Below, piece by piece: positions 250 to 640 of a stretch of 64,000 nt of DNA. Every line of letters begins with the position of its first letter. Position 1 is the stretch's first letter. The notes under the pieces were generated by a model that was not told where the DNA came from, did no database searches, and was given only the letters and a program-made list of their open reading frames with translations. The stretch is from Pseudomonas oligotrophica (GTDB taxonomy: Bacteria > Pseudomonadota > Gammaproteobacteria > Pseudomonadales > Pseudomonadaceae): the NCBI RefSeq assembly GCF_021726475.1, contig NZ_JAKJRU010000006.1:248001-312000 (forward strand), read 5' to 3'. A program made the position numbers and the translations under genes.

Positions 250-338
250 CAGGCCGACCTGGGGCGCGCTCGTCGCGGGAATGTCCGCGGCGAAGCCCCG
301 GCACCGCGCCCAACCGGCGAAGACAAGAAAAGACGGGC

Positions 339-364
339 AAAAAAAAAGGCGACCTGAGGTCGCC
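339..364 (-). terminator. Rho-independent terminator of ccoM
   Basis: A perfect 7-bp stem (GGCGACC / GGTCGCC, loop TGA) at 348-364 is followed, in minus-strand sense, by nine T residues (339-347). It lies 31 bases beyond the ccoM stop codon. The T run is on the minus strand only, so it serves ccoM and not phaJ1. Confidence 0.85.
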
Positions 365-394
365 CAAATGCCTTGCGTGCTCGGTACAGCGGGA

Positions 395-508
395 TCAGCT
401 GCGCTTCTTTTTCGAATCCCGCCAGATGAACAAAGCGACACCGCCCAGGAAAGCGACCATCAGGCCGACCGTTACCACCCCTGCGAGTACTACGCTATCG
501 ACGAACAT
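395..508 (-). CDS. ccoM: Probable cbb3-type cytochrome c oxidase small subunit CcoM (37 aa)
   Basis: A 37-codon gene, ATG at 508 to TGA at 395-397, preceded by GAGGA seven bases before the start. The product begins MFVDSVVLAG, has one hydrophobic helix at about residues 7-29, and ends in a positively charged tail (RDSKKKRS), as expected for a single-pass inner-membrane protein with the tail in the cytoplasm. Size and sequence resemble CcoM, the 37-residue subunit first found in the P. stutzeri ZoBell cbb3 oxidase, which stabilises that high-affinity oxidase. It is a monocistronic unit with an Anr-like promoter (551-590) and a strong terminator, consistent with induction at low oxygen. The naming rests on remembered similarity; the existence of the gene is supported by start, ribosome site, promoter and terminator together. 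Confidence 0.72.
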   Translation of the reverse strand: MFVDSVVLAGVVTVGLMVAFLGGVALFIWRDSKKKRS

Positions 509-550
509 GAGACCGTCCTCCGAATCCGTTGCGATGTCCGATGGGCTCAA

Positions 551-556
551 GTTAAA
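551..556 (-). promoter_or_regulatory. -10 element of the ccoM promoter
   Basis: TTTAAC on the minus strand. It predicts transcription starting near 544, which puts the centre of the Anr-like box (583.5) at about -40 and gives a leader of roughly 36 bases. This is the geometry of class II FNR/Anr-activated promoters. No consensus -35 is seen, as expected for such a promoter. Confidence 0.5.
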
Positions 557-576
557 CCTGCAACGCCCGGGCAAAA

Positions 577-590
577 TTGACCCCGGTCAA
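577..590 (-). promoter_or_regulatory. Anr/FNR-type box upstream of ccoM
   Basis: The perfect palindrome TTGACCCCGGTCAA (TTGAC-N4-GTCAA) is a common variant of the Anr/FNR consensus TTGAT-N4-ATCAA. It is centred 75 bases upstream of the ccoM start codon and about 40 bases upstream of the inferred transcription start. Anr activates the cbb3 oxidase genes of Pseudomonas when oxygen falls. Confidence 0.65.
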
Positions 591-626
591 TGGCAGCGGA
601 AGGCCGACGGAAAGCTGCTCGGGCGG

Positions 627-640
627 CTGATCTGGATCAA
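627..640 (-). promoter_or_regulatory. Second Anr/FNR-like box, 50 bp upstream of the first
   Basis: On the minus strand this reads TTGATCCAGATCAG, which matches TTGAT-N4-ATCAA at nine of ten defined positions. Its centre is exactly 50 bp from the first box, near -90 relative to the inferred ccoM transcription start. It may be an auxiliary site or a chance match. Confidence 0.45.

Follow-up and report, generated by a model that had tools for sequence, protein, structure and literature searches.

The window, by which we mean the whole 64-kb stretch of DNA analysed here, carries on its minus strand a reading frame of 37 codons and a stop, from an ATG at 508-506 to a TGA at 397-395, read directly from the sequence as MFVDSVVLAGVVTVGLMVAFLGGVALFIWRDSKKKRS. 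As judged by a curated protein model and a solved structure, this frame is ccoM. Its product exceeds the cut-off of 40 bits for the NCBIfam equivalog NF041600 (cytochrome c oxidase subunit CcoM), and chain N of PDB entry 5djq aligns with it over residues 1-35 of 36. The PDB labels that chain only 'Putative uncharacterized protein'; we take it to be CcoM, an identity reportedly given in a 2016 mBio paper. The hydrophobic stretch of the product was judged by eye. An earlier note on this DNA had described a 37-codon gene with a ribosome site and a CcoM-like product, and the features collected in Table 1 bear out both points.

Table 1. Features of the ccoM/PhrS locus in window coordinates
Feature	Position	Strand	Basis
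ccoM, 37 codons + stop	395..508	-	NF041600 68.4 bits; 5djq_N E 8e-14; pN<pS in 90/90
PhrS-type RNA, ~205 nt, whole predicted ccoM transcript	338..542	-	RF01673, 136.4 bits
Ribosome binding site GGAGGA	516..521	-	read directly; 7 bases before ATG
Anr/FNR-type box TTGACCGGGGTCAA (palindrome)	577..590	-	centre 583.5 = -41.5 from modelled RNA start 542
-10 hexamer TAACTT (putative)	549..554	-	TANNNT at offset 28-30 from box centre in 92/104 loci
creg seed GCACGCAAGGCA, 3' untranslated region	369..380	-	read from sequence (380-369)
Intrinsic terminator, GGGCGACC/GGTCGCCT stem + T run	339..365	-	terminator scan; same stem in fold

In an excerpt of PMC10433244, CcoM of P. stutzeri figures as an already known oxidase subunit of 36 aa. 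The ORF products of two same-genus genomes (L020 of G012 and L021 of G007) match the 35 displayed residues of 5djq_N, whereas the window protein differs at the end of its helix, GGVALFIWRDSKKKRS. A genome-wide search finds CcoM once. The same genome codes for a cbb3 oxidase: three ccoN genes exceed the cut-off, all on contigs C18 and C19, while the window belongs to contig C17. The distance from the oxidase genes claimed earlier therefore holds for ccoN, the gene that was searched. A relative of the window strain's CcoM is present as a chain in the solved oxidase 5djq, and the protein would probably be assembled into this strain's own cbb3 oxidase.

The Rfam model for PhrS, RF01673, is matched over its full length (model positions 1-212 of 212; gathering score 37, E 4.8e-34) and is, together with one tRNA, the sole Rfam match over the gathering score within the window. 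The predicted ccoM transcription unit is thus a PhrS-type regulatory RNA. The earlier interpretation was largely right as to CcoM and incomplete in that it missed this second identity of the same unit; the transcript, given there as 150 bases, is predicted to extend over the whole Rfam match. Since the model starts at 542, the centre of the Anr-type box falls where a palindrome about 40 bases upstream of the inferred start had been described. The -10, previously placed at 551-556, is better read as TAACTT at 554-549 because of the recurrent TANNNT spacing listed in Table 1. The proposed terminator is confirmed, with a stem at 365-347 and a T run.

The motif TTGAYNNNNRTCAA occurs once in the 64-kb window, against 0.05 expected by shuffling; a simple terminator scan of the window finds 1 against 1.4 expected, not above chance, and a simple promoter scan finds no sigma-70 promoter. 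Of 200 shuffled versions of the full RNA (542-338), 25 fold equally well (z -1.22), so it is no more stable than shuffled sequence. The ORF, box and terminator rise above chance because they are conserved across loci. An Fnr/Anr-type regulator is encoded in the window genome (320.6 bits) and in all 8 genomes tested, and PhrS of P. aeruginosa depends on Anr, according to an excerpt of PMC8395346. By analogy, the predicted RNA is probably transcribed in the window species under the control of Anr.

Two further minus-strand frames lie upstream of the locus. One, at 697-861, encodes a lysine-rich protein of 54 aa with no Pfam match, a relative of which adjoins PhrS in 30 of 30 places in the genus, 30 of 30 further ones in the family and 5 of 6 named loci. 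The other, at 857-1456, encodes an AlkB-like 2OG-Fe(II) oxygenase (PF13532, 145.9 bits).

PhrS and CcoM match together, at overlapping places, in all 37 same-genus genomes of a first draw, the window's own included, and both match in 55 of the 56 of a larger draw, the exception (G110) having neither. In a draw of 298 family genomes, PhrS has a match in 291 (over cut-off in 276) and CcoM in 271 (over cut-off in 270). The weak PhrS matches of G069, G096, G046 and G223 hold the terminator without creg and are no proof of PhrS; those of G069 and G096 are terminator-only false ones. One genome, G279, has two CcoM and two PhrS matches.

Conservation was read from the window and 104 loci matching PhrS or CcoM, with ORF-less loci deliberately excluded; 104 of these 105 bear the ORF, the other (L141) being a misplaced stretch; most are best-scoring or listed places and not a random sample, so that the figures below lean to good matches. 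Within 160 bases before the ATG, TTGAYNNNNRTCAA is perfect in 103 of the 104 ccoM loci and carries one mismatch in the remaining one; the 102 family loci all have it perfect. The box that the earlier note gave to this gene as its own is thus conserved. The centre of the nearest box lies 64-78 bases from the ATG in the 104 loci. In 13 of them (L062 and other family loci), the nearer box is joined by another Anr box some 123-126 bases upstream of the start codon.

Downstream of the stop, the creg 10-mer CACGCAAGGC is found in 92 of 104 loci and its core 8-mer CGCAAGGC in 101 of 102 family loci. The 12 loci that lack the 10-mer are 10 of genus g26 (L142-L151), where the core is kept in 9 of 10 with a changed flank, and 2 outside the family. 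Wherever they were compared (90 of 90), the 10-mer is preceded by G and followed by A, which gives the 12-mer GCACGCAAGGCA. Most bases of the 3' untranslated region upstream of the 12-mer vary. This far greater constancy of creg argues against a locus that makes CcoM alone, as an mRNA whose seed region is a passive 3' end serving stability or termination.

The same is true of loci from which the ORF is gone. In genus g27, which we guess to consist of oxidase-negative pseudomonads, none of 13 genomes has ccoN over cut-off. Ten of the 13 carry a mini-PhrS with a perfect Anr box and a terminator and no CcoM ORF; in these ten, TANNNT stands at offset 28 and creg follows 28-33 bases after the expected start. 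Promoter, creg and terminator thus persist where there is no message to stabilise. The other three are G142, with a broken ORF, and two genomes with a weak CcoM-like ORF. The gene that follows the mini-RNA of G121 shares 62% identity over 449 residues with the gene downstream of PhrS in P. aeruginosa PA7, so that the mini-RNA seems to occupy the orthologous place. In five mini-RNAs that were folded, with ends set by eye, z is below -3 in four and -1.95 in one; all five form a 5' hairpin, the sequence of which varies from one RNA to another.

Further ORF-less copies lie beside the window's 54-aa neighbour in three genomes of genus g36 that have ccoN (G109, G277 and G288, the last with a changed creg). 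G059 resembles them, with an imperfect box and no match to the neighbour. In G083, ccoN is present and the ORF is truncated; in G070 and G067, there is no ccoN, the ORF is absent or truncated and creg is retained. In G067, which has no ccoN over cut-off, a pair of PhrS-type RNAs (L096, L118) stands in tandem at a distance of about 0.7 kb; both have creg, a truncated ORF and a perfect Anr box. The seed RNA occurs without the ORF in genomes lacking the oxidase, and such relatives offer a clean route to the RNA's own role.

Targets of creg were sought in 8 genomes with an exact pattern for its complement that allows wobble pairs, the reversed pattern serving as control. It yields 92 sites, against 66 for the control. 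Seven of the 92 are PhrS itself, and G149 carries a variant creg; 89 were read, leaving out the PhrS self-sites of G305, G036 and G000. In blastp comparisons of the surrounding reading frames, no leader recurs among the sites of the 8 genomes, hence no conserved target emerges from this search. Besides self-sites, blastp returns two within-genome pairs (L183/L214, L202/L236) and five between-genome pairs. Among the latter, the site of L223/L232 lies deep inside a murC-like gene, as judged by eye, the shared frame itself contains those of L237/L244 and L254/L263, and the matches L181/L207 and L207/L192 are weak (37-38%), with frames placed unlike around the site. None of the pairs shows a conserved leader.

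PhrS is reported to lower cyoAB, the genes of another terminal oxidase (excerpt of PMC12101431). CyoA over cut-off is present in 6 of 12 genomes and absent in the window genome; the effect therefore cannot be general, and it cannot apply in the window genome. Pairing of creg with cyoA leaders was also rejected: among 8 CyoA-family matches, the best rank 7 and 9 of 200 shuffles and lie inside the coding start.

The lack of a conserved target is what a mere message would give, and the excerpts of the literature that we examined document regulatory activity for P. aeruginosa alone. Two genomes outside the family, G037 and G041, moreover have CcoM with an Anr-type box (perfect in one, one mismatch in the other) and no creg, so that an mRNA alone is viable. 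Set against the constancy of the seed and the ORF-less RNAs of genus g27, these points leave the message-only explanation unlikely for the window.

The converse explanation, a regulatory RNA whose ORF has little or no translation and is retained for the sake of RNA structure, draws on those same lineages in which the RNA half does without the ORF. Against it speaks the pattern of substitutions. Codon statistics were taken from 91 distinct ORFs, identical ones counted once, with the atypical L092, L093, L094 and L099 excluded, as well as L147, whose tryptophan is shifted. pN is below pS in every comparison with the window (90 of 90) and in 4086 of 4095 pairs. Entropy averages 0.52, 0.26 and 1.14 at codon positions 1, 2 and 3 and is highest at the third. 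The earlier note had named, as one refutation, the lack of an alignment to CcoM together with the lack of a conserved frame in related genomes; both the alignment and the conserved frame are seen. The protein is, in addition, a chain in a solved oxidase.

The frame also follows its oxidase. Counted at E 1e-150, ccoN is present in 271 of 298 family genomes; 262 have both ccoN and CcoM, 9 ccoN only, 9 CcoM only and 18 neither (Fisher p 5e-16, uncorrected for kinship among genomes that are not phylogenetically independent). A second search of seven of the nine CcoM-only genomes turned up ccoN fragments in six; the seventh, G241, has none and is 75% complete. The remaining two, G150 and G163, hold CcoM-like ORFs with weak scores (41.0 bits in G150, against a cut-off of 40). 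Apart from these two, therefore, no near-complete genome among the 298 has CcoM without ccoN. At the default threshold, none of the 16 'neither' genomes searched, out of 18, has ccoN over cut-off; the other two, G106 and G108, are 70% and 77% complete. The creg RNA is kept in 13 of the 18; of the other five, three lack any PhrS match (G085, G106, G108) and two show a terminator only (G069, G096). In five of the nine genomes with ccoN only (G059, G083, G109, G277, G288), the ORF of the PhrS-type locus is missing or cut short, which makes CcoM dispensable there; the other four (G092, G110, G223, G307) have no CcoM and no PhrS match in the family-wide search. Across the family, the ccoM ORF thus appears to follow ccoN.

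Nor does the ORF seem to be needed for the fold around creg. We rejected the idea that it masks the seed: opening the ORF in silico in 92 loci produces no systematic change in creg accessibility (means 0.52 and 0.54), with a rise of more than 0.2 in 6 of the 92. Together with the codon pattern, the solved structure and the link to ccoN, this renders a purely regulatory RNA very improbable. That the ORF arose by chance beside a look-alike promoter, as its shortness and the unremarkable promoter and terminator scans might have suggested, is refuted for all practical purposes by the curated-model, structure, PhrS-model and conservation results.

We therefore favour, with a probability of roughly 0.85, a dual-function RNA: a message for a cbb3 subunit whose 3' end is an independently maintained small RNA. 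The coding identity, the PhrS identity, the promoter geometry and the conservation of the seed are direct observations; Hfq binding and base-pairing activity in the window species are what we infer. At low oxygen, Anr would bind at -41.5 and turn on a separate transcript of about 205 nt, whose 37 codons would be translated into CcoM, a small cbb3 oxidase subunit encoded away from the ccoN genes. With its creg seed and terminator, the 3' portion of this RNA would act as the PhrS regulatory RNA and pair with other RNAs, assisted by Hfq. In P. aeruginosa, where cyoAB is lowered according to the excerpt of PMC12101431, both halves would form one respiratory switch.

ccoM and PhrS are each already known; the interest lies in their link at an otherwise ordinary locus. 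In P. aeruginosa PA7 (NC_009656.1), PhrS is 213 nt long and scores 204.1 bits for RF01673, and the CcoM model NF041600 matches its ORF of 37 aa with 77.6 bits. This strain has a further small RNA, the Pseudomonas sRNA P18 (RF01671; L282:7441-7575), at a distance of about 2.2 kb from PhrS. In the excerpts at hand, PAO1 PhrS is described as a 213-nt RNA with creg at nt 169-182 and an ORF of 37 aa with a role still to be worked out (PMC9308961); the function of the peptide is called elusive (PMC8395346), and it is counted among small proteins of unknown function (PMC8672173). By contrast, an excerpt of PMC5521070 places PhrS with the RNAs whose small protein has been validated by experiment, and leaves that protein unnamed. 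Excerpts likewise state that PhrS is induced at low oxygen and associated with Hfq (PMC8395346 among the sources) and that its CRISPR effect requires creg and dispenses with the ORF (PMC6700203). We found no statement joining PhrS and CcoM in the literature searched, where the two papers that mention both are by their titles unrelated to the matter and the excerpts of one that mentions PhrS and cbb3 do not link them; the primary CcoM, PhrS and interactome papers, which lay outside that search, might state the link. If the PhrS peptide is CcoM, phrS deletions also remove an oxidase subunit, and phenotypes credited to the RNA may therefore be partly respiratory.

As to its origin, G037 and G041, with ORF and box and no creg, suggest from two genomes that the message predates the seed. 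In G041 (L099), another reading frame, MTGEILFVFALLAG..., begins soon after the ccoM stop, and no PhrS-type terminator is seen; a further genome, G043, has CcoM over cut-off and no PhrS match. We give an even chance to the following course of events. PhrS would have begun as an Anr-driven ccoM message and, at the base of the family, acquired a 3' end capable of base-pairing. It would then have been freed from the protein at least twice: upon loss of the cbb3 oxidase or of CcoM, unrelated 5' hairpins would have taken the place of the ORF, with the Anr promoter, creg and the terminator retained. If this were true, both halves would serve one low-oxygen programme, and the ancestral target of the seed would be independent of cbb3 and of the quorum-sensing gene that has made PhrS known.

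The window RNA resembles PhrS of P. aeruginosa in its full-length match, identical creg 12-mer, Anr box and terminator. The P. aeruginosa RNA has pqsR and the CRISPR leader as targets in the excerpts seen. With the dual-function RNAs SgrS/SgrT and VcdRP (excerpts of PMC8672173 and PMC5521070), the window RNA would share the union of a small protein and a regulatory part in one RNA. It differs from them in that its protein is a structural respiratory subunit, and in that a 5' hairpin replaces the ORF in some of its relatives.
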